NCBI RefSeq assembly: GCF_003627075.1
Contig: NZ_CP032630.1
Span: 1,426,001 to 1,490,000 of the forward strand
DNA from: Protaetiibacter intestinalis
GTDB taxonomy: Bacteria; Actinomycetota; Actinomycetes; Actinomycetales; Microbacteriaceae
Direction of reading: 5' to 3'
Length of the DNA: 64,000 nucleotides
Shown here: positions 13,841 to 55,834 of the stretch, piece by piece
Layout of the letters: every line of letters begins with the position of its first letter
Numbering within the stretch: the stretch's first letter is position 1
The notes under the pieces: model-generated
What the model saw: only the letters and a program-made list of their open reading frames with translations
Told to the model about the DNA's origin: nothing
Databases searched by the model: none
Made by a program: the position numbers and the translations under genes

Positions 13841-14058
13841 CCGCTGGTTGAGTAGCGCCCGGAGGGCGCGTATCGAAACCCGTGCAGACGTGGATGCGTG
13901 GGGCCTCACCGACGACGGGCGCCCCGTCGAGGGGCGTCCGTCGTGGTCTCGATACACCGCCTGCGGCGGCACTCGACCAGCGGCGGTGGGGCGCGCCTGC
14001 GGCGGCACTCGACCAGCGGGGGTGGGGCGCGCCGCCGAGCGGCGCTCGACCGGCGGGA
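13841..14058. repeat. composite dispersed repeat, copy A
   Basis: Order on the plus strand: GGTTGAGTAG...TATCGAAACC arm (13846-13881), core GCAGACGTGGATGCGTGGGG (from 13884) leading to GCCTCACC, a hairpin (13912-13925 with 13931-13944, one G-T pair, 5-nt loop), then the reversed arm TCTCGATACACC...ACTCGACC (13947-13978). Two further partial arms follow up to 14058. It lies between the convergent amidase and pgm genes. Frame-wise translations of it are spurious. Confidence 0.85.
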
Positions 14059-14062
14059 AGCG

Positions 14063-15682
14063 CTACCCCAGCGCCGCGTCGACGATGCGCTTCGCCTCCG
14101 CCTGCACGAGCGCCAGGTGCTCGGGCCCGCGGAACGACTCGGCGTAGATCTTGTACACGTTCTCGGTGCCGCTCGGCCGCGCCGCGAACCAGGCGTGCTC
14201 GCTCGTCACCTTCACCCCGCCGATCGCGGCCCAGTTGCCGGGCGCGTGCGAGAGCCTCGCCGTGATCGGGTCGCCCGCGAGCTCGGTCGCCGTGATGTCG
14301 TCGCCCGAGAGCTTGCCGAGCCGCGCCTTCTGCTCCGGCGTCGCCGCGGCGTCCACCCGCGCGTAGGCGGGGTCGCCGAACTCGGCCGTCAGCTCGCGGT
14401 ACAGCTCGCTCGGGCTCTTGCCGGTCACCGCGCGGATCTCGGCCGCCAGCAGGGCGAGCAGGATGCCGTCCTTGTCGGTCGTCCACGCCCTGCCGTCGAG
14501 CGTCAGGAAGCTCGCGCCCGCCGACTCCTCGCCGCCGAAGCCGACCGAGCCGTCGACGAGGCCCGGTACGAACCACTTGAACCCGACCGGCACCTCCCAC
14601 AGCCGCCGCCCGAGCGAGGCGGCGACGCGGTCGATCATCGAGCTCGAGACGAGCGTCTTGCCGATCGCCGCATCCGGACGCCAGCCCGGCCGGTGCGCGT
14701 ACAGGTACTGGATGGCGACCGCGAGGTAGTGGTTGGGGTTCATGAGCCCGCCGTCGGGCGTGACGATGCCGTGCCGGTCGGCGTCGGCGTCGTTGCCGGT
14801 GAGGATCGCGTAGTCGCCCGCGCGGGCCACGACGGATGCCATGGCCGAGGGCGAGGACGGGTCCATGCGGATCTTCTCGTCCCAGTCGAGCGTCATGAAC
14901 GACCACCTCGGGTCGACGGCCGGGTTCACGACCTCGAGGTCGAGCCCGTAGCGCTCGGCGATGAGCTCCCAGTAGTGCACGCTCGCCCCGCCGAGCGGGT
15001 CGGCGCCGAGCTTCAGCCCCGAGGAGGCGATCGCCTCCATGTCGAGCACGCCCGCGAGGTCGTCGACGTACGCCCCTCGGAAGTCGTAGCTGTCGACCCC
15101 CGAGGGCTCCGCGAACCGCACCTCGCGGTTGCCGCCCTCGATGATCGCGTTCGCGCGCGCCGCGATCCAACCCGTCGCATCCGAGTCGGCCGGGCCGCCG
15201 TGCGGCGGGTTGTACTTGAAGCCGCCGTCGCGCGGCGGGTTGTGGCTCGGCGTGATGACGATGCCGTCGGCCTGGGGCTCGCCCGGGTTGTCGGTGTTGT
15301 ACCGGATGATGGCGCGGCTGAGCGCGGGGGTCGGCACGTAGTCGTCGTACTCGTCGGCGATCGCGTGCACCCCGTTCGCCTCGAGCACCCCGAGCGCGGT
15401 GGTCTGGGCGGGGGCCGAGAGTCCGTGGGTGTCGGCGCCGACGAACAGGGGACCCGTGACGCCCTGCTCGGCGCGGTACTCGACGATCGCCTGGGTGATG
15501 GCGGCGATGTGGGTCTCGGTGAAGGCGCCGTCGAGGCTCGAGCCGCGGTGCCCGCTCGTGCCGAACACGACCCGCTGGGCGGCATCCGTCATGTCGGGGG
15601 TGCGGTGGTAGTACGCGTCGACGAGCTCGTGCACGTCGATCAGGTCGGACGGCTGGGCGGGGGTTCCGGCACGCGAGGTCAT
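14063..15682 (-). CDS. pgm: phosphoglucomutase (alpha-D-glucose phosphate-specific)
   Basis: Interconverts glucose-1-phosphate and glucose-6-phosphate in the cytoplasm; 539 aa, normal length. The phosphoserine loop is FGTSGHRGSS (near residue 45). The metal loop is NDADADRHG, the sugar-binding loop lies near GGEESAGAS, and the phosphate-binding end reads RPSGTENVYKIYAES. A much longer open frame runs upstream through pheA antisense, but homology and spacing support the ATG at 15682. It is divergent from pheA with 30 bp between the start codons. The final residues touch repeat copy A. Confidence 0.94.
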   Translation of the reverse strand: MTSRAGTPAQPSDLIDVHELVDAYYHRTPDMTDAAQRVVFGTSGHRGSSLDGAFTETHIAAITQAIVEYRAEQGVTGPLFVGADTHGLSAPAQTTALGVLEANGVHAIADEYDDYVPTPALSRAIIRYNTDNPGEPQADGIVITPSHNPPRDGGFKYNPPHGGPADSDATGWIAARANAIIEGGNREVRFAEPSGVDSYDFRGAYVDDLAGVLDMEAIASSGLKLGADPLGGASVHYWELIAERYGLDLEVVNPAVDPRWSFMTLDWDEKIRMDPSSPSAMASVVARAGDYAILTGNDADADRHGIVTPDGGLMNPNHYLAVAIQYLYAHRPGWRPDAAIGKTLVSSSMIDRVAASLGRRLWEVPVGFKWFVPGLVDGSVGFGGEESAGASFLTLDGRAWTTDKDGILLALLAAEIRAVTGKSPSELYRELTAEFGDPAYARVDAAATPEQKARLGKLSGDDITATELAGDPITARLSHAPGNWAAIGGVKVTSEHAWFAARPSGTENVYKIYAESFRGPEHLALVQAEAKRIVDAALG

Positions 15683-15699
15683 GCGACCATCCTGCCCGC

Positions 15700-15705
15700 T
15701 AGGCT
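15700..15705 (+). promoter_or_regulatory. -10 box TAGGCT of leaderless pheA
   Basis: TAGGCT, 7-nt spacer, then the GTG at 15713. Confidence 0.6.
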
Positions 15706-15712
15706 CGCGGAC

Positions 15713-16639
15713 GTGTACAGCTATCTCGGCCCCGCGGGCACCTTCACCTGGGCGGCGCTCGCCCAGGTGCCGGAGGCGGCGGGGACCGAGTGGCGCAGCG
15801 TCAACAACGTGGGCGAGGCGCTCGACGACGTCGTGAGCGGGCGCAGCACGGCCGCCATGATCGCGATCGAGAACTCGGTCGAGGGCGGCGTCTCGGCCAC
15901 CCAGGACGCCCTCGCCAACATCCCGGGGCTGCGGATCGTGGGCGAGTACCTCGTGTCCGTCAACTTCCAGCTCGTCGCGCGGCCGGGCACCCGCCTCGAG
16001 GAGGTGCGGGTCATCAACGCGCACCCCGTCGCCTACGCGCAGTGCCACCTGTGGCTCGACGCGACCCTGCCGAGCCACGGGCACATCCCGTCGACCTCGA
16101 ACGTGGCGGCGCCCGCCGAGCTGCTCGAGTCGACGAACGCCGACGCGGCCATCGCACCCCCCGGCATCACGGCGCACCTGCCGCTCGAGGTGCTCGCCGA
16201 GGACATCGCCGACAACGCGGAGGCGGTGACCCGCTTCGTGCTCGTGTCGCGTTCGCGCGTCATCCCGCCGCGCACCGGCGCCGACAAGACGAGCGTCATC
16301 GTCGAGCTGCCGACCGATCAGCCGGGCGCGCTCGTCGAGATGCTCGAGCAGTTCGCCACCCGCGGGGTGAACCTCAGCCTGCTCGAGTCGCGCCCCATCG
16401 GCGACGCCCTCGGCCGCTACCGCTTCATCGTCGACCTCGACGGTCACGTGCTCGACGAGCGGGTCGCGGATGCGCTGCTCGGCCTCAAGCGGTTCAGCCC
16501 GAGCGTGCAGTTCCTCGGCTCCTACCCGCGCGCCGACCAGCAGCACGTCGAGGTGACGAGCCGCTACGACGACCAGGTCTTCATCGACGCGCGCGACTGG
16601 CTGCGCGACATCGTGAGCGGCGCGCCCGCCGCGGAGTGA
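15713..16639 (+). CDS. pheA: prephenate dehydratase
   Basis: Converts prephenate to phenylpyruvate in phenylalanine synthesis; 308 aa, monofunctional with no chorismate mutase domain. The catalytic domain starts YSYLGPAGTFTWAAL and contains IAIENSVEGGV. The conserved Thr is in VTRFVLVSR (near residue 180). The C-terminal ACT domain has the GALVEMLEQFATRGVNLS and LESRPIGD motifs that bind phenylalanine for feedback inhibition. The start is set by the conserved first residues and the leaderless promoter. Transcription converges on the lipid kinase gene across repeat copy B. Confidence 0.93.
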   Translation: MYSYLGPAGTFTWAALAQVPEAAGTEWRSVNNVGEALDDVVSGRSTAAMIAIENSVEGGVSATQDALANIPGLRIVGEYLVSVNFQLVARPGTRLEEVRVINAHPVAYAQCHLWLDATLPSHGHIPSTSNVAAPAELLESTNADAAIAPPGITAHLPLEVLAEDIADNAEAVTRFVLVSRSRVIPPRTGADKTSVIVELPTDQPGALVEMLEQFATRGVNLSLLESRPIGDALGRYRFIVDLDGHVLDERVADALLGLKRFSPSVQFLGSYPRADQQHVEVTSRYDDQVFIDARDWLRDIVSGAPAAE

Positions 16640-16701
16640 CGGCGAGGTGCGGCCTGCGGCCGCGCTGTGTCTTGCGGGACGGCCGCGATGCGGCCTTCCC
16701 G

Positions 16702-16893
16702 CTGTTGAGTGCCGCGCGCCGGGCGTCACCCCTTCCGCTGGTTGAGTGCCGCGCGAAGCGCGGTGTATCGAAACCAGCGAAGGCGCCCCTCGATGGGGCG
16801 CCTTCGCTCGGTGAGGCCCCACTGGTCCACGTCTGCATGGGTTTCGATACGCCCGCTGCGCGGGCTACTCAACCCGCGGGGGCAACCAGCGGG
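16702..16893. repeat. composite dispersed repeat, copy B (inverted relative to A)
   Basis: A partial arm (16702-16729) precedes a complete element. On the minus strand this reads GGTTGAGTAG...TATCGAAACC, core GCAGACGTGGACCAGTGGGG leading to GCCTCACC, a perfect 14-bp hairpin (16776-16789 with 16795-16808) and the reversed arm up to 16735. The hairpin arms differ from copy A at paired positions, so the stem is kept by compensating changes. It lies between the convergent pheA and lipid-kinase genes. Confidence 0.88.
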
Positions 16894-16912
16894 AGGGGGC
16901 AACCCAACCCGC

Positions 16913-17908
16913 CTACGCGTCGCGGGGGAGGCGCACCACGAGGGCTGCGGGGTCGACGTGGGCGCGGAAGCCGTTGATGAGGCCCAACTCGTCGCCGTCG
17001 AGCTGGAAGTCCTCGGGATGGTCGAGGTCGACGTGCAGGCGGCGCCCGCGCAGGTAGCGCATCGCCCGCACCGGCTTCTGCCGCAGGTCGAGCAGTTTGC
17101 GCCCCATCGAGCTGCGGCGCAGCACCCCGTTCTCCCACAGCACGCCCACCCACACGCGCGCCCAGCCGAAGAAGCCCTCGGGGCGCAGCATGACGATGTC
17201 GAACAGGCCGTCGTCGAGTTCCGCATCCGGCAGCAGGTGCACGTTGCCGGGCAGGGTGCCGCAGTTGCCGACGATGACGGTGTGCGCCCGCGACGCCTTC
17301 ACCTCGCCGTCGTCGAGGCGGTAGTTCACCTTCAGCACCTCGCGGTCGACGAGCGCGCGCGCGATGGCGTCGACGTAGGCGAGCCAGCCGACCCGCTTCT
17401 TCAGCTCGGGGTTGGTGTTGGCGATCATCTTCGCGTCGAGCCCGACGCCCGCCATGACGAGGAACGCGAACTCCTCGCTGCCGCCGTCGGCGCGGTCGAT
17501 CTCGATCACCCCGACGTCGATCGCGCCGTCGAAGCCGGTGAAGGCGTAGTCGACCATGCGTTCGAGGTGGCTGGTGTTGACGTCGAGCCGCAGGTTGCGG
17601 GCGAGCAGGTTGCCGGTGCCGCAGGGCAGTACCGAGATGGCGACGCCGGTGCCGCGCAGTACCTGCCCGACGGCGCGGACGGTGCCGTCGCCGCCGCACG
17701 CGATCACCACATCCGGCGCGGAGGCGAGGGCCTGCCGGGTCTGCCCGTAGCCCGGGTCGTCGGGGGTGGTCTCGAACCAGATGCTCTTCGCCCAGCCGTG
17801 CTCGCTCTCGGAGACGGCGACCGCGGCGCGCAGCCGGTCGATGTCGACCTTGATCGGGTTGTAGACGACGGCCGCCCGCTTGGGTGCACCTGCGTCGGGC
17901 GGCGTCAT
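16913..17908 (-). CDS. diacylglycerol/sphingosine kinase-family protein
   Basis: 331-aa lipid kinase-like protein (YegS/LCB5 group), presumed to phosphorylate a lipid or glycolipid at the membrane. The N-terminal KRAAVVYNPIKVD and the ATP-binding VIACGGDGTVRAVGQVL (near residue 70) define the DAGK catalytic domain. GTGNLLARNL follows, and the C-terminal beta-sandwich contains the DDGLFDIVML segment. Upstream in-frame codons exist, but the ATG at 17908 has a TANNNT box exactly 6 nt upstream and begins just before the conserved domain. It diverges from serS with 53 bp between starts. Confidence 0.85.
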   Translation of the reverse strand: MTPPDAGAPKRAAVVYNPIKVDIDRLRAAVAVSESEHGWAKSIWFETTPDDPGYGQTRQALASAPDVVIACGGDGTVRAVGQVLRGTGVAISVLPCGTGNLLARNLRLDVNTSHLERMVDYAFTGFDGAIDVGVIEIDRADGGSEEFAFLVMAGVGLDAKMIANTNPELKKRVGWLAYVDAIARALVDREVLKVNYRLDDGEVKASRAHTVIVGNCGTLPGNVHLLPDAELDDGLFDIVMLRPEGFFGWARVWVGVLWENGVLRRSSMGRKLLDLRQKPVRAMRYLRGRRLHVDLDHPEDFQLDGDELGLINGFRAHVDPAALVVRLPRDA

Positions 17909-17914
17909 GGTCTC

Positions 17915-17920
17915 ACGGTA
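17915..17920 (-). promoter_or_regulatory. -10 box TACCGT of leaderless lipid-kinase gene
   Basis: On the minus strand TACCGT, then GAGACC, then the ATG at 17908. Confidence 0.6.
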
Positions 17921-17949
17921 GGCCATGAGCCACGCGCCCGACAGGCTCC

Positions 17950-17955
17950 TAGACT
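17950..17955 (+). promoter_or_regulatory. -10 box TAGACT of leaderless serS
   Basis: TAGACT, then TGAGGC, then the GTG at 17962. It is divergent from the lipid-kinase promoter 30 bp away. Confidence 0.6.
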
Positions 17956-17961
17956 TGAGGC

Positions 17962-19224
17962 GTGATCGACCCCGTGCTGCTGCGTGAGAACCCGGATGCC
18001 GTGAGAGCCTCGCAGGAGCGTCGCGGGGCATCCGTCGCCCTCGTCGACGACGCGCTCGCGGCGGATGTGGGCCGCCGCGCCGCGATCTCGGCGTTCGAAA
18101 CCCTGCGGGCGGAGCAGAACGCCTTCGGCAAGACGGTCGCGCAGGCGCCGAAGGAGCAGAAGGCGGCGCTCGTCGCGCAGGCGCAGGAGCTGGCCGCGAA
18201 GGTGAAGGACGCGCAGCGCGCGAGCACCGAGGCCGAGGAGCGCTTCGCCGAGGTGGCCGGGTCGATCCCGAACATCGTCATCGACGGGGTGCCCGCCGGG
18301 GGCGAGGACGACTTCGTGACGCTGCGCGAGGTGGGCGGGAGGCCGAGCTTCGACTTCGCCCCCCGCGACCACCTGGAGCTCGGCGAGCTGCTCGACGCGA
18401 TCGACATGGAACGCGGCGCGAAGGTGTCGGGCGCCCGGTTCTACTTCCTGAAGGGCGTCGGTGCGCGGCTCGAGTTCGCGCTCATCCAGTTGGGTCTGCA
18501 GCGCGCGCTCGAGGCGGGCTTCACCCCGCTCATCACCCCGACGCTCGTGCGACCCGACATCATGGCCGGCACCGGCTTCCTCGGCGCGCACGCCGACGAG
18601 ATCTACTACCTGGAGCGCGACGAGCTCTACCTCACCGGCACGAGCGAGGTGGCGCTCGCCGGCTACCACAAGGACGAGATCATCGACGTCTCGGCGGGCC
18701 CCAAGCGCTACGCCGGCATCTCGACCTGCTACCGGCGCGAGGCCGGCTCGGGCGGCAAGGACACCCGCGGCATCATCCGCGTGCACCAGTTCCAGAAGCT
18801 GGAGATGTTCAGCTACATCGACCCCGCGGATGCCGAGGCCGAGCACGAGCGTCTGCTCGCCCTGCAGGAGGGGATGCTGCAGAGCCTCGGCCTGTCGTAT
18901 CGCGTGATCGACACGGCCGCGGGCGACCTCGGCACGAGCGCCGCGCGCAAGTTCGACGTGGAGGCGTGGGTGCCTACCCAGGACGCCTACCGCGAGCTCA
19001 CCTCGACGAGCAACTGCACGACCTTCCAGGCGCGACGCCTCGACATCCGCCGCCGTGGCGAGGACGGCCGGACGAGCCCCGTCGCGACCCTCAACGGCAC
19101 GCTCGCCACGACCCGCTGGATCGTGGCGCTGCTGGAGACCCACCAGCGCGCCGACGGCTCGGTGGCGGTGCCGGAGGTGCTGCAACCGTTCCTCGGCCTC
19201 GAGGTGCTGGAGCCCGTGAAGTGA
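17962..19224 (+). CDS. serS: seryl-tRNA synthetase
   Basis: Charges tRNA-Ser; class II synthetase of 420 aa. The N-terminal coiled-coil arm (about residues 30-100) is rich in Glu/Lys/Ala. Motif 2 reads [17 protein letters not shown] with HQFQKLEMF. The motif 3 region is [14 protein letters not shown] followed by [15 protein letters not shown]. The GTG start is leaderless and its ending overlaps the HAD gene (GTGA). Two tRNA-Ser genes lie just downstream in the same orientation. Confidence 0.96.
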
Positions 19225-20048
19225 CGGCGCTCGCCCCCGAGGACCGCTGGCTCATCGGCCTCGACATCGACGGCACCGTGCTGCACGAGGACGGCCAGCT
19301 CGACGACCGCGTGGCGGCCGAGATCCGCCGGGTGCGCGATCTCGGCCACGAGATCATGCCCTCGACGGGCCGCTCGGTGTCGATGACGCTGCCCGTGATC
19401 GACCGGGTCGGCATCGCGCCGTCGTTCGCGGTGTGCGCGAACGGGGCGATCGTGATGCGACGCGACAAGGAGGCGCCGGTCGGCTGGGTGCGCGACCGCG
19501 TCGAGACGTTCGACCCGCGCGAGGTGCTCACGACGATCAGCGGCCACCTGCGCGGTGCGAGCTACGCCGTGGAGGACGAGGAGGGGTTGTTCCGCTTCAG
19601 CGGCCCGTTCCCGGAGGGCGCGCTCGCCGCGGGCCGCCTGCAGGTGGAGTTCGAGGAGCTGCTCACCACCCGCGCGACGCGCGTCGTGGTGCTGTCGCCC
19701 GGCCACGCGATCGAGGACTTCCTGAAGATCGTCGAGCGGATGGGCCTGCACAAGGTGAGCTACAACGTCGGCTGGACGGCGTGGCTCGACATCGCCCCCG
19801 ACGGTGTCAACAAGGGCACCGGCATGGAGTACGTGCGCGAGACGCTCGGCATCTCGCGCGAGCACGTCATGGTGATCGGCGACGGACGCAACGACATCGA
19901 CATGTTCGAGTGGGCGGCATCCGGGGGCGGCGTCGCGATCGCGATGGGGCAGGCGCCGGATGAGGTGAAGGCCGTGTCGACGGATGTCACGGGCACCGAC
20001 CTCGAACAGGGCGTCGCCAGCGCTCTCGCACGGTATTTCCAGGGTTGA
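19221..20048 (+). CDS. HAD-superfamily phosphatase (Cof type, class IIB)
   Basis: 275-aa cytoplasmic phosphatase, likely acting on a sugar phosphate or nucleotide. Motif I is [13 protein letters not shown], motif II lies in MPSTGRS, the lysine region is GVNKGTGM and motif IV is [15 protein letters not shown]. The IIB cap lies between about residues 85 and 190. The GTG at 19221 overlaps the serS stop, giving translational coupling with serS. Any functional tie to serine charging is unproven. Confidence 0.85.
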
Positions 20049-20063
20049 CGACCCCTTCTCCCT

Positions 20064-20069
20064 TACACT
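20064..20069 (+). promoter_or_regulatory. -10 box TACACT upstream of tRNA-Ser(TGA)
   Basis: TACACT lies 17 nt before the tRNA 5' end. TTGACG occurs upstream but with only a 13-nt spacer, so the -35 is uncertain. Confidence 0.45.
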
Positions 20070-20086
20070 CGATTCCGGTCAACCGA

Positions 20087-20171
20087 GGAGGGCTGTCCGA
20101 GCGGCCGATGGAGCCGGTCTTGAAAACCGGTGGGCAGTGATGTCTCGTGGGTTCGAATCCCACGCCCTCCG
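20087..20171 (+). tRNA. tRNA-Ser (anticodon TGA)
   Basis: 85-nt class II tRNA. The acceptor GGAGGGC (20087-20093) pairs with GCCCTCC (20164-20170), and G at 20171 is the discriminator. The anticodon loop CTTGAAA gives anticodon TGA, reading UCA and other UCN codons. A long variable arm and GGTTCGAATCC T-loop are present. CCA is not encoded. Confidence 0.95.
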
Positions 20172-20223
20172 CTGCACGTCGTCCCCGTCCGTTTTCCGAG
20201 CCTGATCCCGAGAAGAGGTGTCC

Positions 20224-21480
20224 GTGTCCGAGCAGGAGCAGCTGCGCGATCGTTCCCAGCGCGCCCGGGCGCCCCGCCCCACCGGCATCGCGCGGCATGG
20301 ACGGCTTCCGCGGTCGCGGGCCTGGAAGACGGTGCTCGGGCTGATCGGCTCGACCGTCGCCGTCGTGCTCGTCGCCACGACCTCGGTCGGTGCGATCGCC
20401 ATCATGCAGCTCAAGCAGGAGCTCGACGACACGGGCGTGACGATCAACGAGACCGAGGCGCCCATCCCCGAGATCGGCGCCTACGAGGGCGGCTTCAACG
20501 TGCTGGTCGTCGGCAGCGACGCCTACTACGACCGCGACAGCGTGCTCAACGACGTCAACATCCTCGTGCACGTCTCCGCCGACCAGACGAGCGCTGTCGC
20601 GGTGAGCTTCCCGCGCGACATGGTCGTGCCGTTCCCCCCGTGCACCAACGAGGAGACGGGCCGCAAGACGAGCGCCGCCTCCGGCATCCCGATCAACAGC
20701 GCCCTCTCCTACGGTGGCCTCAACTGCGTCGTCGACGTGGTGCGCAACTTCACGGGCCTCGAGATCCAGTACGCCGCCATGATCGGCTTCGAGGGGGTCG
20801 CCAACATGGCGACCGCGGTCGGCGGCGTGGATGTCTGCGTGCAGGGTGAGATCCACGACAAGTACGTGGGCCTCGACCTGGAGGCGGGGACCCACCACCT
20901 CGACGGCTGGCAGGCGCTGCAGTTCGTGCGTTCGCGTCACGGTGTCGGCGACGGCTCCGACCTCACGCGTATCAGCTCGCAGCAGGTGTTCATGTCGGCT
21001 CTGCTGCGCAAGCTGAAGTCGGAGGACACGCTCACCAACGTCGGCAAGCTGTGGGGCATCGCGAATGCCGCGCTCGAGAACATGAAGCTGTCGAAGGAGC
21101 TCACCCAGGTTCCGACGATGATCGCCATGGCGAAGGCGCTCAGCAACATCCCGATGGACCGCATCACCTTCGTGCAGTACCCGGGCAGCACCGGCGGCAC
21201 GGGGATCTACGCGGGCAAGGTGCAGCCGAACAAGACGCTCGGCACCCAGCTGATCGACGCGATCAAGGCCGACCAGGCGATCGCCGTCGAGGCCGGTGAC
21301 GGTCGCGGCTCGGAGCTCGACCCGAACGCGACGCAGGAGCCGACGGCCCCCGAGACCTCGACGCCGGACCCGACCGGCTCGGCGACCCCCACCCCGGAGC
21401 AGACCCTGTCGGAGGCGGTCACGATCAACGGTCTGCGCGGTCAGACGGCGGCAGACCAGACCTGCACGATCGGCAACTGA
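20224..21480 (+). CDS. LytR-CpsA-Psr (LCP) family cell-wall ligase
   Basis: 418 aa. LCP enzymes transfer lipid-linked wall polymers such as teichoic acid-like or arabinogalactan-like glycans to peptidoglycan. A cytoplasmic start of about 37 residues precedes one transmembrane helix (about 38-62). The LCP domain begins GGFNVLVVGSDAYYD and contains the pyrophosphate-binding Arg in VSFPRDMVV and the SRHGVGDGSDLTRISSQQ motif. A Pro/Thr-rich tail (PTAPETSTPDPTGSATPTPE) precedes the last 25 residues. GTG codons occur at 20218 and 20224; the second is preferred because AGAAGAG lies 6 nt before it. It sits between two tRNA-Ser genes. Confidence 0.9.
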   Translation: MSEQEQLRDRSQRARAPRPTGIARHGRLPRSRAWKTVLGLIGSTVAVVLVATTSVGAIAIMQLKQELDDTGVTINETEAPIPEIGAYEGGFNVLVVGSDAYYDRDSVLNDVNILVHVSADQTSAVAVSFPRDMVVPFPPCTNEETGRKTSAASGIPINSALSYGGLNCVVDVVRNFTGLEIQYAAMIGFEGVANMATAVGGVDVCVQGEIHDKYVGLDLEAGTHHLDGWQALQFVRSRHGVGDGSDLTRISSQQVFMSALLRKLKSEDTLTNVGKLWGIANAALENMKLSKELTQVPTMIAMAKALSNIPMDRITFVQYPGSTGGTGIYAGKVQPNKTLGTQLIDAIKADQAIAVEAGDGRGSELDPNATQEPTAPETSTPDPTGSATPTPEQTLSEAVTINGLRGQTAADQTCTIGN

Positions 21481-21509
21481 CGCGCGTCGGGAGCCCATCC
21501 CGCTGTGGG

Positions 21510-21515
21510 TATGAT
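21510..21515 (+). promoter_or_regulatory. -10 box TATGAT upstream of tRNA-Ser(GCT)
   Basis: TATGAT lies 15 nt before the tRNA 5' end. No clear -35 is seen. Confidence 0.55.
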
Positions 21516-21530
21516 GGGCAGGCAGTACCG

Positions 21531-48432: not shown

Positions 48433-49274
48433 GCACCGCACCCGCCCGCGTCCGGATGGCCGGACTCTCGGCGACGACGGTCAAGTACGTCTCGCTCGTG
48501 ATCGGGGTGATCGTCACCCTCGTGCCGCTGTCGGCGCTGTTCATCGCGAGCTTCAAGACCTCGCAGGAGCTCGGGCAGACCGGGCCGTTCGACCTGCCCG
48601 CGAACTGGTTCAACTTCGAGAACTACGTCACGGCGTTCGTCCGGGGCGGCATGGTCGAGGGCTTCCTCAACACGACCGTCATCCTGCTGTTCTCGCTCAC
48701 CGGCACGATCCTCATCGGCACGATGGCCGCCTACGCGATCGACCGCTTCCACTTCCGGGGCAAGAAGCTCATCGTGGGGCTGTTCCTCGTGGCGACGCTC
48801 ATCCCCGGTGTCACGAGCCAGGTGGCGACGTTCCAGATCATCAACGGGCTCGGGCTCTACAACTCGATGGCCGCGCTGATCCTGCTGTTCATGGGCACCG
48901 ACATCATCTCGATCTACATCTTCATCCAGTTCATGCAGTCGATCCCCGCGTCCATCGACGAGGCCGCGATGCTCGACGGCGCCAACCGCTGGACCATCTA
49001 CTGGCGCGTGATCCTGCCGCTGCTGCGGCCCGCGATCGCGACGGTCGTCATCGTGAAGGGCATCGCGATCTACAACGAGTTCTATCTGCCGTTCCTCTAC
49101 TGGCCGTCGGAGGGCGTGATCTCCACCTCGCTGTTCCGCTTCAAGGGGCCCTTCGGCGCCCACTGGGAGACGATCGCCGCGGGCACCGTGCTCGTCATCG
49201 TGCCGACGCTCATCGCCTTCGTCTTCCTGCAGCGCTTCATCTACCGCGGTCTCGCCTCGGGGTCGGTCAAGTGA
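48429..49274 (+). CDS. sugar ABC permease, MalG type
   Basis: 281 aa, six helices. The EAA loop is IDEAAMLDGANRWTIYWRV (near residues 177-195), and the fold ends in LQRFIYRGLASGSVK. The ATG overlaps the MalF-type stop, and the beta-mannosidase GTG overlaps its own stop. It is expected to pair with the preceding permease and a shared MsiK-type ATPase. Confidence 0.9.
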   Translation: MSTAPARVRMAGLSATTVKYVSLVIGVIVTLVPLSALFIASFKTSQELGQTGPFDLPANWFNFENYVTAFVRGGMVEGFLNTTVILLFSLTGTILIGTMAAYAIDRFHFRGKKLIVGLFLVATLIPGVTSQVATFQIINGLGLYNSMAALILLFMGTDIISIYIFIQFMQSIPASIDEAAMLDGANRWTIYWRVILPLLRPAIATVVIVKGIAIYNEFYLPFLYWPSEGVISTSLFRFKGPFGAHWETIAAGTVLVIVPTLIAFVFLQRFIYRGLASGSVK

Positions 49275-51715
49275 GCGCGCGCGAACTGCACACCGGGTGG
49301 ACCGTGCGCGCCGCGGGCGGCCCGGTTCCGGATGCCGTGGGCGCCGCCGCGCTGCCGGCCGTCGTGCCCGGGGTGGTGCACCAGGCCCTGCTCGACGCGG
49401 GCCGCATCCCCGACCCCTACCTCGACGACAACGAGTCGGCGCTCGCCTGGATCGGGCTCGTCGACTGGACGTACGAGCTGGGCTTCGAGGTGACGGAGGC
49501 GGAGGCGGCCGAGGAGCGCCGCGCGCTCGTCTTCGACGGCCTCGACACGGTGGCGACCGTGCTGCTCGACGGCGAGCCGGTGGCCGAGGTCGCCGACCAG
49601 CACCGCACCCACCGCATCGAGCTGGGCGAGCAGCTCACCGCAGGCTCCCACCGGCTGACCGTCGCCTTCCGCAGTCCCGTGCGCTATGCCGACGCGCAGA
49701 GCCTCGCCCTCGGCGCCCGCCCGCGGCCCTACCCGATGCCCTTCGAGGCGATCCGCAAGTCGGCCTGCAACTTCGGCTGGGACTGGGGCATCGCCACCTT
49801 CACGAGCGGCATCTGGCGCCCCGTGCGCCTCGAGGCGTGGTCGACGGCGCGGTTCGCCGCCTCGCGGGTCGTCGCGACGCCCGAGGGCGACGGCGGCCGC
49901 ATCGCCGTCGCGGTCGAGCTCGCCACCACGGCGGTTGCCGAGCTCGAGCTGGAGCTCGAGGCGGCGGGGGAGCGGGCGGCCGCGACCGTGCCCGCGGGGG
50001 CGAGCACCGCATCCGCGACGCTCGAGCTCGCCGAGGTGGAGCGCTGGTGGCCGGTGGGCTACGGCGCGCAGCCGCTGTACGACGTGACCGTGCGCCTGCG
50101 CGCGGGTGACCGCGTGCTCGATGAGGCGCACCGCCGCGTGGGCTTCCGCACCCTGCACTGGGACACCGAACCGGACGCCGACGGCCGCCCCTTCCAGCTG
50201 GTCGTCAACGGGCAGCCGGTGTTCGTGAAGGGCGTCAACTGGATCCCCGACGACGCGCTCTTCCCACGCGTCGACCGCGCCCGCTACGCGCGTCGGCTGC
50301 GGCAGGCGGTCGCCGCGAACCTCAACCTCGTGCGGGTGTGGGGCGGCGGCATCTACGAGGACGACGCCTTCTACGAGCTGTGCGACGAGCTCGGGCTGCT
50401 CGCCTGGCAGGACTTCCTGTTCGCGTGCGCCGCCTATCCGGAGGAGGAGCCGCTGCGCTCCGAGGTCGAGGCCGAGGCGCGCGACAACGTCACCCGCATC
50501 GCGCACCACGCATCCCTCGCCCTGCTCACCGGCAACAACGAGAACCTGTGGGGCTACGAGGACTGGGACTGGAAGCGCCGTCTCGACGGCGCCACCTGGG
50601 GTGCGCACTACTACTACGAGCTGCTGCCCGCGGTGGTGGCCGAGCTCGCGCCGCACGTGCCCTACGCCCCCGGCAGCCCGTTCAGCCCGGGCGGCGAACT
50701 GCACCCGAACGACGAGACGGCGGGCTCGGTGCACCTCTGGGAGCAGTGGAACCGGCGCGACTGGCCGAGCTACCGCGAGCACACCCCGCGCTTCGTCGCC
50801 GAGTTCGGATGGCAGGGGCCGCCCACCTGGACGACCCTGCGTCGCGCGCTCTCCGACGAGCCGCTCACCCCCGAGTCGCCCGGCATGATCGTGCACCAGA
50901 AGGCGTTGGAGGGCAACCAGAAGCTCTCCGACGGCCTGCTCGCCCACTACCGGGTGCCGCGCGACATGGAGGACTGGCACTGGGCCATGCAGCTCAACCA
51001 GGCCAACGCCGTGGGCGCCGCCCTCGACCACTTCCGCTCGCACGCGCCGCACACCTCGGGTGCGATCGTGTGGCAGCTCAACGACTGCTGGCCCGTCACC
51101 TCGTGGGCGGCGATCGACGGCGACGGGCGCGAGAAGCCGCTCTTCCACGCGCTGCAGAACGCCTTCGCGCCGCGCGTGGTCACGATCCAGCCGCGTCAGG
51201 ACGGGCTCGTCGCCGTGGTCGGCAACGACACGGCCGAAGGATGGGAGGGCGACCTCGTCCTGACGCGGCTCGGCTACGACGGCGCACCGCTCGCCTCGGC
51301 CACCGTGGCGGTGTCGCTCGCGCCGCGCTCCTCGGCGACCGTTGCGCTTCCCGCGGAGGTCGCGGCGGCATCCGACGCGGCCTCCGAGCTCGCGCTCGCG
51401 GAGCTCGACGGGGTGCGCGGCACCTGGTTCTTCGCCGAGCCGCGCGACTCCGCGCTGCCGGCGGCCGACGCGGCCGTCGCCGTGGAGCGGGCCGACGACG
51501 GCACCGCGGTGACCGTCACGGCATCCGTGCTGCTGCGCGACGTGACCCTGCTCGTCGACAAGCTGCATCCGGATGCCGCGGTCGACCGCGGGCTCGTCAC
51601 CCTGCTGCCGGGCGAGTCGGCGCGGTTCACGGTGCGCGGGGTCGACGGCCTCACCGTGGATGCCGTGGCCGCCCCCGGCGTGCTGCGCTCCGGCAACCAG
51701 CTGGTGACGCGATGA
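49271..51715 (+). CDS. GH2 beta-mannosidase
   Basis: 814 aa, cytoplasmic. It removes terminal beta-mannose from manno-oligosaccharides or Man-beta-GlcNAc units. The jelly-roll start ends with the beta-mannosidase hallmark CNFGWDWG (166-173). Next come RVWGGGIYEDDAFYELCDE (near 355), the acid/base Glu in TGNNENLWG (near 421) and the nucleophile Glu in AEFGWQGPPTW (near 512). These motifs set it apart from GH2 beta-galactosidases. The GTG start overlaps the permease stop. Confidence 0.93.
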   Translation: MSARELHTGWTVRAAGGPVPDAVGAAALPAVVPGVVHQALLDAGRIPDPYLDDNESALAWIGLVDWTYELGFEVTEAEAAEERRALVFDGLDTVATVLLDGEPVAEVADQHRTHRIELGEQLTAGSHRLTVAFRSPVRYADAQSLALGARPRPYPMPFEAIRKSACNFGWDWGIATFTSGIWRPVRLEAWSTARFAASRVVATPEGDGGRIAVAVELATTAVAELELELEAAGERAAATVPAGASTASATLELAEVERWWPVGYGAQPLYDVTVRLRAGDRVLDEAHRRVGFRTLHWDTEPDADGRPFQLVVNGQPVFVKGVNWIPDDALFPRVDRARYARRLRQAVAANLNLVRVWGGGIYEDDAFYELCDELGLLAWQDFLFACAAYPEEEPLRSEVEAEARDNVTRIAHHASLALLTGNNENLWGYEDWDWKRRLDGATWGAHYYYELLPAVVAELAPHVPYAPGSPFSPGGELHPNDETAGSVHLWEQWNRRDWPSYREHTPRFVAEFGWQGPPTWTTLRRALSDEPLTPESPGMIVHQKALEGNQKLSDGLLAHYRVPRDMEDWHWAMQLNQANAVGAALDHFRSHAPHTSGAIVWQLNDCWPVTSWAAIDGDGREKPLFHALQNAFAPRVVTIQPRQDGLVAVVGNDTAEGWEGDLVLTRLGYDGAPLASATVAVSLAPRSSATVALPAEVAAASDAASELALAELDGVRGTWFFAEPRDSALPAADAAVAVERADDGTAVTVTASVLLRDVTLLVDKLHPDAAVDRGLVTLLPGESARFTVRGVDGLTVDAVAAPGVLRSGNQLVTR

Positions 51716-52680
51716 GCGGCCGCATCCCGGGCGACCCGATCGCCGGCATGACGTGGGGCTGGGTCGGCACCCGCGGAACCTGGGCCACTCCGGAGGCGGC
51801 CTCGTCGATGCGGGCGATGGCCGAGCACGGCGTCACCTGGACGGCGATCGCCTACGCGGCCGAGCAGGCGCACATCTTCTCGACCGAGATCCCGTACGAC
51901 CGGGAGCCGACGGTGACCGACGACGAGATCGTGTGGGCGATCCGCGAGGCGCACGCGCTCGGGCTGACGGTGTGCCTGAAGCCGGTCGTGAACGTGGCCG
52001 ACGGCACCTGGCGCGCCCACATCGGCTTCTTCGACCACGAGGTGCCGGGCGAGGCGACCTGGGCTCAGTGGTTCGCGAGCTACACGGAGTTCATCCTGCA
52101 CGCGGCCCGCATCGCCGAGGCCGAGGGCTGCGCGATGCTCTGCGTCGGCTGCGAGATGGTGCGCGCCGACGGGCAGGAGGCGCACTGGCGCGCGCTCATC
52201 GCGGCCGTGCGCGAGGTGTACTCGGGGCTCGTCACCTACAACTGCGACAAGTACCAGGAGGACCGCCTCAGCTGGTGGGACGCCGTCGACGTGATCTCGT
52301 CGAGCGGCTACTACCCGATCGACAGCTGGCAGGCACAGCTCGACCGCATCGAGCCGGTCGTCGCGGCATCCGGCAAGCCGTTCTTCTTCATGGAGGCGGG
52401 CTGCCCCTCGCGCACCGGCTCGGCGCAGCTGCCGAACGACTGGAACCTGCCGGGGGAGCCGTCGGGCGAGGAGCAGCTGCGCTACTACGAGACGATGTTC
52501 GCCGCCGTCGAGGCGCGGCCCTGGGTGCGCGGGCTCATGCTCTGGGACTGGCCGGCGCACTTGTACGCTGAGGGGGCGGCGGCCGGCAACGACGACTACT
52601 GCCCGTACGGCAAGCCGGCGGGCGCGTTCATGGCGGCCCGCTATCGCGACTGGACCTCGAGGAGCACGGAGCACGCATGA
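51712..52680 (+). CDS. GH113-like glycosidase (beta-mannanase type)
   Basis: 322 aa, TIM-barrel glycosidase of the GH113/clan A style; no signal peptide, so intracellular. It begins MTWGWVGTRGTW, and has LTVCLKPVVNV and a candidate acid/base region CVGCEMVRAD (near residue 143). The candidate nucleophile is in FFFMEAGCPS (near 225), and LMLWDWPAHLY is near 284. The two glutamates at strand ends 4 and 7 fit retaining beta-mannanases. It overlaps the GH2 and kinase genes. Endo versus exo action cannot be told. Confidence 0.78.
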   Translation: MSGRIPGDPIAGMTWGWVGTRGTWATPEAASSMRAMAEHGVTWTAIAYAAEQAHIFSTEIPYDREPTVTDDEIVWAIREAHALGLTVCLKPVVNVADGTWRAHIGFFDHEVPGEATWAQWFASYTEFILHAARIAEAEGCAMLCVGCEMVRADGQEAHWRALIAAVREVYSGLVTYNCDKYQEDRLSWWDAVDVISSSGYYPIDSWQAQLDRIEPVVAASGKPFFFMEAGCPSRTGSAQLPNDWNLPGEPSGEEQLRYYETMFAAVEARPWVRGLMLWDWPAHLYAEGAAAGNDDYCPYGKPAGAFMAARYRDWTSRSTEHA

Positions 52681-53579
52681 CCGACGCCGTCTCGCTCGCC
52701 CTCGACGCGGGTCAGACCGGCATCAAGGTGCGTGTCTCGCGCGCGGGCGCCGCGCCCGTCGACCGGGGGTTCCCCGGCATCCGCACGGATGCGCCCCTGC
52801 TGCCGCAGCTGGCGGAGGTGGCGCGGGTCGCCTCGGTCGGCGCGCCCGTCGAGGTGCTCGCCGCGGGCGTCTCGGGGCTGACCTCGGCCGAGGACGACGC
52901 CGCGGAGCTGCGCGCCCTCGTGCACGAGCTGACCCCCGGGCGCGTGCTGCTGACGCACGACTCGGTGAGCTCGTTCCTCGGCACGCTCGGCGACCAGCAC
53001 GGCGCGGTCGTCGCCTCCGGCACCGGCGTGGTGACCCTCGCCGTCGGCCCCGGCGGGGTGGCGCGCGTCGACGGCTGGGGCTACCTCATGGGCGACGCGG
53101 GCAGCGGGTTCTGGCTCGGCCGGGCGGCGCTCGACGCGGTCATGCGCGCCCACGACGGTCGCGGCCCCGCGACCTCGCTCACCGAGGTGGTGCAGGCGCG
53201 CTGGCCGGTGCTCGAGGACGCCTACGTGCAGCTGCAGTCGGATGCCGCCCGCGTGAGCGTGGTCGCCTGGTTCGCCGAGGCGGTCGCGGCGCGCGCCGAC
53301 ACGGATGCGGTGGCCGCCGGCATCTGCGCCTCGGCCGCCGAGGAGCTCGCCCTGTCGGTGACGACGGCCCTGCGCCGCGTCGACGCCGCCCCCGTGGTGA
53401 GCGCCATCGGCGGCGTCTTCCGCGGCGCCGCGGTGCGTTCGGGCTTCGAGGAGCTGCTGCGTGCCGTGCACCCCGAGGTGCGCTTCGAGGCGCCCCACGG
53501 CTCCGGCCTCGACGGGGTGGCGGCGCTCGCCGCCCTCGCCGACGGCCACCCCCTCCGCACCCTCGTCTCCGAGGCGTAG
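52677..53579 (+). CDS. BadF/BadG-type sugar kinase (N-acetylglucosamine kinase-like)
   Basis: 300 aa ASKHA-fold kinase. Phosphate 1 motif LDAGQTGIKVRV (near residue 10), phosphate 2 region VVASGTGVVTLAV with GWGYLMGDAGSGFWLGRAAL, and adenosine motif VVSAIGGVFRGA. The GDAGSG signature is characteristic of GlcNAc kinase-like BadF proteins. Being last in the mannoside operon it would phosphorylate a released sugar: GlcNAc, mannose or glucosamine. It ends before repeat copy C and a convergent regulator gene. Confidence 0.85.
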   Translation: MTDAVSLALDAGQTGIKVRVSRAGAAPVDRGFPGIRTDAPLLPQLAEVARVASVGAPVEVLAAGVSGLTSAEDDAAELRALVHELTPGRVLLTHDSVSSFLGTLGDQHGAVVASGTGVVTLAVGPGGVARVDGWGYLMGDAGSGFWLGRAALDAVMRAHDGRGPATSLTEVVQARWPVLEDAYVQLQSDAARVSVVAWFAEAVAARADTDAVAAGICASAAEELALSVTTALRRVDAAPVVSAIGGVFRGAAVRSGFEELLRAVHPEVRFEAPHGSGLDGVAALAALADGHPLRTLVSEA

Positions 53580-53589
53580 TCCCCTCCCG

Positions 53590-53680
53590 CGGGTTGAGTA
53601 GCCGCGAAGCGGCCCCCTCCCGTTGGTTGAGTAGCCGCGAAGCGGCGTATCGAAACCCATGCACACGTGCAGCAGAGGCC
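53590..53680. repeat. composite dispersed repeat, copy C (truncated)
   Basis: Two arms in a row start GGTTGAGTAGCCGCGAAGCG (from 53591) and GGTTGAGTAGCCGCGAAGCG (from 53624), the second with TATCGAAACCC. A shortened core ATGCACACGTGCAGCAG then AGGCCTCAGC follows, ending at the stop codon of the convergent winged-helix gene. The central hairpin and right arm found in copies A and B are missing. Confidence 0.8.
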
Positions 53681-54313
53681 TCAGCTGATCACCGTCACAT
53701 CCGGATGCGGGTCGAGCCGGTACCCCCGCCCCCGCACGGTGCGGATCACCTCCGCGTACGGCGCGATCCGCCGACGCAGCCGCTGCAGGTACACGTCGAT
53801 GGTGCGCTCCCCGATGTCGTCGGGGTTGTCGGTGTCGGTGAGCGCGACGAGCAGTGAGCGTCGGTCGTGCACGACGCCCTGGTGGCGGACCAGGTGGTTG
53901 AGCAGCGCCTGCTCGCGGTAGGTGAGGTGCACGGCGGAGCCGTCGACGCTCACCCGGTGCCGGGCCAGGTCCACCACCACGCCGTGCTGCGGGGTCGGCG
54001 CCGGCGCCGGGGCGCGGCTCACCGTCGGCTCGCCGAGGGCGGTGCGCACGACGTCGAGCGGCGCCGCATCCTCACCCTCGGGGGCGAGCACGACGGAGGC
54101 GAAGGTCGCCGCCCCGGGGATGTCGGTGAGCGCGCGCTGCACGTCGGAGACGAGCGTCGCGACGTCGACGCCCGCGGCATCCGCTGTCGCCCCGTCGAGC
54201 CCGACGTAGATGCCGAAGCCGCGGAACTCGAGGCCGGCGGGTGCGGCGATCGGCGCGCCGGGGCGCGGGCGGCTGCCCGCCTCCCAGGGGATCGCGACGT
54301 ACTCGACCGTCAT
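53681..54313 (-). CDS. winged-helix regulator without receiver domain
   Basis: 210 aa. The C-terminal OmpR/PhoB-type DNA-binding domain (about 110-205) contains VHLTYREQALLNHLVRHQG, then GERTIDVYLQRLRRRI and TVRGRGYRLDP. The N-terminal about 95 residues (YVAIPWEAG..., FRGFGIYVGLDG) are not a phospho-receiver and lack its Asp/Lys pattern; I do not recognise the domain. A Pro/Ala linker joins the two. The gene ends against repeat copy C. It may sense a ligand or a protein partner. Confidence 0.8.
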   Translation of the reverse strand: MTVEYVAIPWEAGSRPRPGAPIAAPAGLEFRGFGIYVGLDGATADAAGVDVATLVSDVQRALTDIPGAATFASVVLAPEGEDAAPLDVVRTALGEPTVSRAPAPAPTPQHGVVVDLARHRVSVDGSAVHLTYREQALLNHLVRHQGVVHDRRSLLVALTDTDNPDDIGERTIDVYLQRLRRRIAPYAEVIRTVRGRGYRLDPHPDVTVIS

Positions 54314-54352
54314 GCGCTCGAGTCTCCCCGACCCGCCGCGACCGGCGCCAAC

Positions 54353-54404
54353 GTCGTGTCACAGTGCGACGGTGTGCGACGAAACACGACACTGTGTGAC
54401 GTCG
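54353..54404. repeat. overlapping short inverted repeats upstream of the winged-helix gene
   Basis: GTCGTGT (54353-54359) pairs with ACACGAC (54384-54390), and CACAGTG (54360-54366, read from C) pairs with CACTGTG (54390-54396). The 98-bp gap may be the winged-helix promoter with operators, or the end of the upstream metallopeptidase transcript. Confidence 0.4.
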
Positions 54405-54411
54405 CGCCCGC

Positions 54412-55452
54412 TCAGCGCGTGGGGCTGTACGGGGTGACGAGCCGGTGGATGAAGTCGAGTTTCGCGTGCACCGGCTGCGAGAGCTCGAAGGGGTAGAGGT
54501 CGCGCTGGCCCATCGCCCGGTTCACCCGGTTGAAGAACAGCGACACCCACTCCCAGTCGTGCAGCATCTGCTCGGTGGTCTCCTGCGTGTAGTCGGCGTC
54601 GGGCACGATGTCGTGGTCGACGATGCCCGACACCCGGGACGCGTCGAGCACCATGCCGGCGGCGGCCGCGGTGGCGAGGGTGTTGCGGATGTGCAGGTAG
54701 TGGGCGAAGCACTCGGCGAAGTCCTCCCACGGGTGCATCGTCGCGTACTCGGAGATGAAGGAGGTGCGCCAGCCCTCCGGGGCACCGACGCTGTAGTGGC
54801 GGTCGAGCGCCTCGCGGTAGCTGGCGCGCTCGTCGCCGAACAGGGCCCGGCACTCATCCCACAGAGCATCCGTGGTGAGCAGCACGCGCTGGTAGTAGTG
54901 GCCGATCTCGTGCCGGAAGTGCCCGAGCATGGTGCGGTACGGCTCGCCGAGCGAGACCCGCAGCGCCTCGCGGCGGGCGTCGAGGGTCTCGGCGAGGTCG
55001 ATCGTGATGATGCCGTTCGCGTGCCCGATCATGACGGGTGCGTTCTCGGAGAGGCTGGAGAGCAGGTCGAAGCCGAGCCCGCCCTCCTGCTCGTAGTACG
55101 GCGTGATGGGCAGCCCGAGCTCGAACAGCTGCACCATGAGGCGGCGTTTGGCGACCCCGGCATCCGCGAGCTTCTCCCACGCGACGGTGTCGCTCTGCGG
55201 CGGCAGCCGGCGGCTCGTGCTGCACGAGAAGCAGCGCCCGGTGCCGGCGCTCTCGTCGACGAGCCAGTTGCAGCCCCACGCGCGGTTGCCGCACGGGAAC
55301 CAGCGCTCGCCGTCGATCTCGATGCCGGCCGAGTCAGCGAGCTGGTAGCTGAGGCTCGGCGGGTGGTAGCCGAGGGGGGCGTCGCAGTGCCGGCAGCCGA
55401 GCTCGTCGAGGAACACGAACTGCCCGCAGCGGGGGCATCGGGGCACGGCCAC
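54412..55452 (-). CDS. zinc-ribbon metallopeptidase-like protein
   Basis: 346 aa. The start RCPRCGQFVFLDELGCRHCD is a C4 zinc ribbon. A second Cys group is FPCGNRAWGCNW...GRCFSC. The catalytic domain carries FRHEIGHYYQ (HExxH, near residue 184) and a downstream acidic MHPWEDFAECFAHYLH, which supplies the third zinc ligand. This matches the putative zinc-binding metallopeptidase (DUF2248/Peptidase_Mx) family. The GTG at 55452 has a TANNNT box 6 nt upstream. No signal peptide is seen. The physiological substrate is unknown. Confidence 0.85.
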   Translation of the reverse strand: MAVPRCPRCGQFVFLDELGCRHCDAPLGYHPPSLSYQLADSAGIEIDGERWFPCGNRAWGCNWLVDESAGTGRCFSCSTSRRLPPQSDTVAWEKLADAGVAKRRLMVQLFELGLPITPYYEQEGGLGFDLLSSLSENAPVMIGHANGIITIDLAETLDARREALRVSLGEPYRTMLGHFRHEIGHYYQRVLLTTDALWDECRALFGDERASYREALDRHYSVGAPEGWRTSFISEYATMHPWEDFAECFAHYLHIRNTLATAAAAGMVLDASRVSGIVDHDIVPDADYTQETTEQMLHDWEWVSLFFNRVNRAMGQRDLYPFELSQPVHAKLDFIHRLVTPYSPTR

Positions 55453-55458
55453 GCTCGG

Positions 55459-55464
55459 AGTCTA
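55459..55464 (-). promoter_or_regulatory. -10 box TAGACT of leaderless metallopeptidase gene
   Basis: On the minus strand TAGACT, then CCGAGC, then the GTG at 55452. The rest of the gap 55465-55600 shows no gene. Confidence 0.6.
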
Positions 55465-55600
55465 GGCCGGATGCATGCGCCCGACGCGCTGTCAATCCCC
55501 TCCCGCGCGGGGGCGCCCCGCTGAGCGCGGTCGACGGCGACTGACATCCTGCGCCCGCTTCGGTCTCGGGTGCGTGTCCCGAGCACGCGCGTCGCCCTGA

Positions 55601-55606
55601 TATAGT
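55601..55606 (+). promoter_or_regulatory. -10 box TATAGT upstream of tRNA-Arg
   Basis: TATAGT lies 25 nt before the tRNA 5' end. No clear -35 is seen. Confidence 0.6.
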
Positions 55607-55631
55607 CGTCAGGTTGACCTCGCGTCGACAT

Positions 55632-55704
55632 GCGCCCGTAGCTCAATGGATAGAGCATCTGACTACGGATCAGAAGGTTGGGGGTTCGAGTCCCTCCGGG
55701 CGCA
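55632..55704 (+). tRNA. tRNA-Arg (anticodon ACG)
   Basis: 73 nt. GCGCCCG (55632-55638) pairs with CGGGCGC (55697-55703), discriminator A at 55704. The anticodon loop CTACGGA gives ACG, edited to ICG to read CGU/CGC/CGA. CCA is not encoded. Confidence 0.95.
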
Positions 55705-55711
55705 CAGTGTG

Positions 55712-55736
55712 AAAGCCCGGCCATCGGCCGGGCTTT
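55712..55736 (+). terminator. terminator after tRNA-Arg
   Basis: AAAGCCCGGCC (55712-55722) pairs with GGCCGGGCTTT (55726-55736) around a 3-nt loop. Confidence 0.88.
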
Positions 55737-55753
55737 CGTCGTTGGTGGCGAGT

Positions 55754-55834
55754 GTCTCGACCACCCGGGGTGGGAGCCGTCGTAACCATAGGTGGTCGAG
55801 GAGCGCCCGGCGCAGCCGGACGCGTCTCGAGACC
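55754..55834. repeat. divergent member of the dispersed repeat family, copy D
   Basis: GGTGGTCGAGGAGCGCCCGG (from 55791) continues through a small GCCCGGCGCAGCCGG stem to GCGTCTCGAGACC at 55834. This is the TCGAGGAG/CTCGAGACC variant of the TTGAGTAG/TATCGAAACC arms. A reversed half-arm GTCTCGACCACC lies at 55754-55765. It lies between tRNA-Arg and the convergent DUF2510 gene. Confidence 0.7.

Follow-up and report, generated by a model that had tools for sequence, protein, structure and literature searches.

In Neisseria, the small GIY-YIG protein Ssn is said to accompany a many-copy repeat, NTS, that also surrounds its own gene, and the palindromic elements of Rickettsia reportedly interrupt essential genes without breaking the frame, recurring at one site across several species. 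REP, BIME and REPIN sequences, short palindromes that stand in inverted pairs behind genes, cluster around the gene of a nuclease-type enzyme, the RAYT transposase, and one REP-like family, the CGTC REPs, has been reported without a dedicated transposase (both as described in PMC3733652). Strong GC hairpins without a U-tract behind genes of GC-rich bacteria have been described as I-shaped terminators (PMC8269248). Here we analysed a palindromic repeat family of Protaetiibacter intestinalis, noticed in a 64,000-nucleotide stretch of its genome (positions 1426001-1490000 of the single 3.10-Mb contig, hereafter the window), that can be compared with each of these. On our best reading, this mobile palindrome family tracks a small nuclease gene and not the usual transposase, and the enzyme is probably a cognate-repeat nuclease like that of the Ssn/NTS system. 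We consider it rather probable, though well short of certain, that the palindromic arms are the cognate repeats of this GIY-YIG nuclease and that in this species a larger composite has spread behind genes as a putative two-way transcript end.

The palindrome unit reads GGTTGAGTAG-stem-GTATCGAAACC on one strand and GGTTTCGATAC-stem-CTACTCAACC on the other, and each arm is a dispersed palindromic repeat of 33-38 bp with the form GGTTTCGATACG-stem-CTACTCAACC. Arms were of two types, type 1 (..CTACTCAACC) with GAGTAG beside the stem and type 2 (..GCACTCAACC) with GAGTG, and 14 of the 16 strict inverted pairs (132-137 bp in length) joined a type-1 to a type-2 arm, the other two having type-1 ends on both sides. 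Alignment placed a core of ~31 nt (GCAGACGTGG..GGCCTCACCG) and a hairpin between the paired arms, and truncated half-arms in tandem often lay outside them. A strict arm pattern matched the whole genome 57 times, at 38 sites, and its reversed control 0 times. Palindromes were further sorted into the subtypes T1 (TCGATAC), T3 (TCGAGAC) and T4 (TCGACAC).

The genome (G000) carries a GIY-YIG gene outside the window (G000:C1:1211096-1211452, 118 aa, PF01541 E = 7e-15) that has a ParA-type and a GidB/RsmG gene as its neighbours, not far from dnaA, and stands amid six palindromes, one of which overlaps the 3' end of the GIY-YIG gene. The best PDB relative of the protein was the UPF0213 protein 1zg2, and residues Y5, Y15, G17, R25 and E62, which we take to be catalytic, were invariant. 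A search of 99 genomes, this one included, returned 30 GIY-YIG matches in 18 genomes, equivalent to 29 genes since L122 and L126 both belong to a single gene, and 24 of the 30 had a strict T1, T3 or T4 palindrome at a distance of up to ~500 bp or spanning the end of the gene. At the other six, reading of the flanks gave TGATC arms (L099, L112), TCGGCAAGCTCGA (L113), TTCGACAAGCTCAGG-type repeats (L114, L120) and, at the distant L127, none; the TTCGACAAGCTCAGG-type repeats look like a shorter relative of the palindrome. In a pattern-free test, both 400-bp flanks shared a 14-mer at 24/30 GIY-YIG loci, compared to 146/3000 random places and 1/30 locus edges. Beyond the host family, 580 relatives were detected by scanning named genomes, of which 80 were kept (at least three of these loci coming from genomes that the set of 99 also contains), and a repeat of at least 14 bases was shared across the gene at 55 of the 80, excluding a 56th positive with a run of N (L213), against 5/76 controls. 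By phylum, such repeats were found at 32/39 loci in Actinomycetota, 6/6 in Pseudomonadota, 9/20 in Bacteroidota, 2/3 in Spirochaetota, 3/3 in Chloroflexota, 0/3 in Fibrobacterota and 3/6 in others. Our literature searches found no publication on this repeat or this nuclease.

A GIY-YIG protein with conserved catalytic-type residues and a many-copy repeat that also surrounds the nuclease gene are the features in common with Ssn/NTS, from which the present family differs by its other repeat sequence, its in-frame protein insertion and its hairpin composite. The Neisseria work reportedly concerns nuclease cutting of repeat-bearing strands that shapes transformation, and by the same token the repeats could be marks in DNA uptake or single-strand defence, with the nuclease cutting palindrome-bearing incoming strands and the spread of the repeat a side effect; the shared enzyme superfamily and repeat association speak for this, yet it leaves the intragenic copies and the composite unexplained, and we regard it as improbable.

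A further alternative is that the arms are REP/BIME sequences moved by a RAYT (a Y1 HUH transposase) in a standard REPtron, the GIY-YIG gene being a bystander. The family does share small imperfect palindromes and inverted pairs behind genes (16 strict pairs, with only 4 of 38 sites intragenic) with REPs, together with the convergent and unidirectional placement reported for them (PMC3733652); a GTAG stands beside the stem in type-1 arms, where type-2 arms read GAGTG. Against this, the Y1_Tnp profile (PF01797) had 0 matches in the genome, compared to hits in 5 of 14 controls, and it matched 4 of the 99 genomes, none of them repeat-rich (5, 1, 0 and 0 arms). The gene at the centre of the cluster here encodes a GIY-YIG protein. 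A resident RAYT is thereby refuted, leaving a lost RAYT as the sole remaining form of an explanation that we judge very improbable, and the BIME-like nature suggested by the earlier sequence-only reading fails in the strict REP/RAYT sense because no Y1_Tnp was found in the genome. The CGTC REPs differ in sequence and hosts, and the family described here has a GIY-YIG gene associated with it. Of the marks of a miniature inverted-repeat transposable element, inverted ends are present; the orthologous gaps were too diverged for a target-site duplication to be read, and the transposon search was for Y1_Tnp only. A plasmid or phage origin was rejected, copy A of the composite (see below) having no match at E 1e-5 in plasmid and phage collections. 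We class the family as REPtron-like, a GIY-YIG nuclease standing where the transposase would be, with a hairpin composite carried to gene ends in this species.

Repeat number was also related to the nuclease gene. Host-family genomes with the gene had a median of 27 T1 palindromes (n = 17, own genome excluded) compared to 3 in those without it (n = 42, P = 1.8e-5). When genomes were grouped by flank subtype, the corresponding medians were 33.5 versus 3 for T1 (P = 7e-5), 43 versus 19.5 for T3 (P = 2e-4) and 95 versus 18 for T4 (P = 0.002), with G028 counted as lacking T1 (the distance limit cuts through its palindrome) and a single palindrome each deciding the T3 label of G008 and G010; the T4 difference was retained against only those genomes with a GIY-YIG gene of another flank type (P = 0.005). 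Genome G002 has three GIY-YIG homologues with three subtypes, each of which grouped with other species of the same subtype. Within the genus (10 rows), the nuclease tree required 2 subtype changes, with 0/500 shuffles as low, whereas labels assigned by genome would change 7 times. The tree held 25 of the 30 matches after removal of L116, L122 and L126 (broken) and of L115 and L127 (distant), and the labels of L099, L103, L105, L112, L113, L114 and L120 were given wholly or partly by reading.

The 38 sites in the genome comprised 28 with composite parts and 10 with solo palindromes. Composite sites were convergent in 18 cases and tandem in 10, and none was divergent or intragenic; relative to the 63 convergent, 277 tandem and 64 divergent junctions of a 464-kb reference sample, convergent gaps were strongly enriched (18/28 versus 63/404, Fisher P = 4e-8), also once junctions were weighted by the gene 3' ends that they offer (P = 3e-4), and divergent gaps were avoided (0/28, P = 0.008). 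The solo sites were first called as 5 tandem, 3 intragenic, 1 convergent and 1 divergent, and one of those called tandem (357060) in fact falls within an E1-E2 ATPase reading frame, which gives the intragenic count quoted above. A covariance model of the composite had 23 matches above 100 bits among the 150 candidates scored in the genome and added five sites (2 convergent, 3 tandem, 0 divergent), each directly behind a gene, with one neighbour each at 2332913 and 2171011 read by eye; the composite has spread to some 30 sites behind genes in this species. The sequence-only reading had confined the family to convergent gaps and had proposed an enrichment test against tandem and divergent gaps. 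The test bore out the enrichment, whereas the exclusivity did not survive, with 10/28 composite sites tandem and solo palindromes also inside genes. Scatter without convergent preference, which that reading took as its refutation, was thus found only in its first half, since copies are scattered, yet their preference is significant. Because the 28 composites and the five extra sites include tandem ones, convergent placement is a strong preference and not exclusive, and the placement rule is behind genes, convergent preferred. The location, and an analogy with E. coli REPs (PMC3733652), might suggest supercoil or nucleoid-protein sites between converging genes, similar to the gyrase sites of BIMEs, but tandem gaps account for 10/28 composite sites, and none of 8 congeners yielded a full composite among the best 150 candidates scored per genome; we give this explanation almost no credit.

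The two full composites of the window, copy A (13846-13978, plus strand, 133 bp) and copy B (16740-16874, minus strand, 135 bp), were predicted to fold with -82.6 kcal/mol for A and with -88.3 (minus strand) and -95.2 kcal/mol (plus strand) for B, which corresponds to z scores of -5.1, -9.1 and -9.7, respectively, with 0/200 shuffles as low in each case. The 14-bp stem of the hairpin was fully paired in 23 of 26 copies (chosen by a flanking motif), and positions 2-6 of the stem showed two-sided changes with pairing kept. Judged from these sequence features, transcripts arriving from either direction probably end at the composite, and a BIME-like two-way terminator, first proposed along with putative mRNA-protector and supercoil-site roles, is compatible with the placement at 3' ends. 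The likeness to I-shaped terminators lies in a strong GC hairpin without a U-tract behind genes (PMC8269248), with the difference that this hairpin, a putative terminator, travels within a repeat.

Several observations weigh against the preferred reading, in its nuclease part as well as in its transcript-end part. Against only genomes with a GIY-YIG gene of another flank type, the subtype differences were P = 0.05 for T1 and P = 0.03 for T3, and the chance background of the T3 and T4 patterns is ~20 per genome. Over all 25 rows, the nuclease tree required 9 subtype changes, with 6/500 shuffles as low, and most of its inner branches were weak (4/22 starred). Five repeat-rich genomes of the family had no close homologue of the nuclease, namely G053, which holds 706 strict-type arms, G033 (122), G045 (42), G020 (34) and G048 (31); PF01541 matched once each in G053, G033 and G045 and three times in G048, always in long open frames, and had no match in G020. 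REPtrons are missing from some REP-bearing species through deletion, according to PMC3733652, and by analogy a similar loss may lie behind the missing homologues here. As for transcript ends, a stable hairpin was present behind genes, and no U-tract followed the hairpin of A or B; a terminator scan of 13600-17100 gave a single site, 15195, outside both copies. The paired stem changes are no proof of a role in RNA, because repair within a hairpin can also match its arms.

The insertion history was examined in congeners. Two congeners, G001 and G007, share the genes on either side of A's gap; there the gap was 24 and 81 bp long and held no family palindrome, and the other six congeners had different neighbour genes. 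B's gap, with both genes matched in four congeners, spanned 10-34 bp and held no composite, with one solo family palindrome each in G008 (34 bp), G006 (27 bp) and G003 (30 bp) and none in G007 (10 bp); in G001 the second gene was unmatched and overlapping. Because these gaps hold solo palindromes and no composite, B's gap had been entered earlier, and the composite is particular to this species among the congeners compared. In G006 and G003 (L218, L221), where this gap lies behind the prephenate dehydratase gene, the solo palindrome overlaps both converging stop codons. With the covariance model, the 8 congeners yielded no full composite (best score 68 bits among the best 150 candidates scored per genome), and a scan of the named genomes, from which the window's own genome was possibly left out, gave no match for the core-arm junction.

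A typical arm is open in three frames on its GGTTTCG strand and in one on its GGTTGAG strand, and three of the four intragenic copies were inserted in the fully open direction and the fourth in the single open frame. In valyl-tRNA synthetase, the one intragenic site compared with relatives, the in-frame insertion was absent from some of them: a palindrome was present in frame at one loop, after KFVYSFP/KFVYGFP, in three of nine species of the genus and missing from six. Subtypes were not uniform among the three, with T1 in G000 and T3 in G003 (L087, two palindromes) and G005 (L094), and the same subtype also flanked a nuclease gene of the same genome in each case. The Rickettsia palindromic elements resemble this in their in-frame copies in essential genes and differ in sequence and phylum, the present palindromes being found also at gene ends and around a nuclease gene. 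With two of the three frames closed by stops on the GGTTGAGTAG strand and none on the GGTTTCG strand, surviving insertions would be those that sit at the end of a gene or keep the frame within one, so that some of the placement bias can be explained without any function. This asymmetry, together with the open frames of the intragenic copies and the absence of the composite from the 8 congeners, within the candidates scored, would also fit a neutral filter, in which palindromes insert anywhere, survive behind genes, in frame or in other harmless places, and the composite has no job. The convergent preference after 3'-end weighting and the pairing kept in most hairpin copies run counter to it, although weakly, because convergent gaps may be no more than the places where an insertion does least harm; we hold a purely neutral origin to be unlikely, if still the most serious of the rivals.

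Palindromes have entered both genes and gaps. If the arms are cognate to the nuclease, the form of the palindrome that the enzyme recognises and cuts would be a single-stranded DNA hairpin, after which repair or replication may copy or move the repeat. In this species two arms bracket the core and the hairpin, and the composite spread as a unit; in RNA it could fold into a strong hairpin whichever of the two genes is read, ending both converging transcripts without a U-tract.

Gene calls in the window were made with a codon-model caller trained on 187 long open reading frames of the window and 20 sampled stretches. It returned nine of the sequence-only reading's ten convergent junctions at exactly the same bases (gaps of -22, 244, 273, 2, 3, 9, 13, 101 and -20 bp), and the tenth (55705-55870) is a tRNA (55632-55704, plus strand) facing a minus-strand gene (55871-56077). 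The common layout of A and B (arm, core, 14-bp hairpin and reversed arm) was likewise seen in both sequences and in the alignment. That reading had assigned one family to all four real gaps, which stands for A and B as full composites and for copy C (53592-53687) as a truncated one lacking the hairpin and the second arm, and not for copy D, which belongs to another palindrome subtype; places with both arm halves were, as claimed, confined in the window to the real convergent gaps. The features are listed in Table 1.

Table 1. Repeat features of copies A to D (window positions) and solo palindromes inside open frames (genome positions).
Feature	Position	Strand	Basis or gene
Copy A, type-1 palindrome arm	13846..13880	+	Sequence; alignment with 19 other copies
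Copy A, core (GTGCAGACGTGG..GGGGCCTCACCG)	13881..13911	+	Sequence; conserved in alignment
Copy A, hairpin (stem 14 bp, loop 5 nt)	13912..13944	+	14/14 paired, one G-T
Copy A, reversed type-2 arm (GGTCTCGATAC..CACTCGACC variant)	13945..13978	+	Sequence, pattern match, alignment
Copy B, type-2 arm	16740..16775	-	Sequence, alignment
Copy B, hairpin (stem 14 bp, loop 5 nt)	16776..16808	-	14/14 paired; fold
Copy B, core	16809..16839	-	Sequence, alignment
Copy B, type-1 arm	16840..16874	-	Sequence, alignment
Copy C, truncated half-arm (5' half only), 33-bp tandem of next arm	53592..53613	+	Sequence; direct repeat
Copy C, full type-1 arm	53625..53657	+	Sequence; strict pattern
Copy C, partial core reaching into end of minus-strand gene	53658..53687	+	Sequence
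Copy D, single palindrome, subtype T3 (TCGAGAC), GGTCGAGG..CTCGAGACC	55794..55834	+	Sequence; 2-mismatch match
Solo palindrome in open frame	206588		Valyl-tRNA synthetase
Solo palindrome in open frame	930492		Lhr-type helicase
Solo palindrome in open frame	105756		Chorismate-binding enzyme, PabB-like by reading
Solo palindrome in open frame	357060		E1-E2 ATPase, His-rich start

Rfam at gathering scores returned three tRNAs in the window and nothing else. Other repeats observed there were an inverted repeat of TCCCATCTCAAGGA units (6291-6326 and 6382-6417) and a perfect 24-nt inverted repeat with 27-nt spacing (4163-4237), both in tandem gaps; two GGGAGCGCTCCCAC-type palindromes (12296-12324 and 12429-12457) in a divergent gap, presumably operator-like; and a 298-nt direct repeat with 87% identity (62341-62638 and 62773-63070, 432 bp apart) within a gene called at 62324-64000. 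In a hand count over the genome, 7 of 8 solo arms outside the nuclease cluster had GGTTTCGATAC reading against the direction of the replication fork, on the assumption of a terminus opposite dnaA, compared to 14/23 composites, numbers too few for use.

The association links a type of palindrome common in bacteria with one particular enzyme, and the pairs of enzyme and repeat subtype can be tested in vitro. An essential enzyme, a tRNA synthetase, carries palindromes in frame at a single loop in three species, and about 30 gene ends have been given a strong hairpin by a repeat, so that the same genome offers a natural test both of how new transcript ends originate and of why palindromes collect in convergent gaps. 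More tentatively, and with less than even confidence, small GIY-YIG nucleases may form, across bacterial phyla, a second and non-HUH class of drivers of repeats, each lying within a palindromic repeat of its own, co-evolving with it and spreading it to gene ends and, in frame, to essential proteins, after which hosts would reuse the repeats as two-way transcript ends. If this is true, the TTCGA..CTCA-type repeats beside GIY-YIG genes in several phyla would be the footprints of these nucleases.

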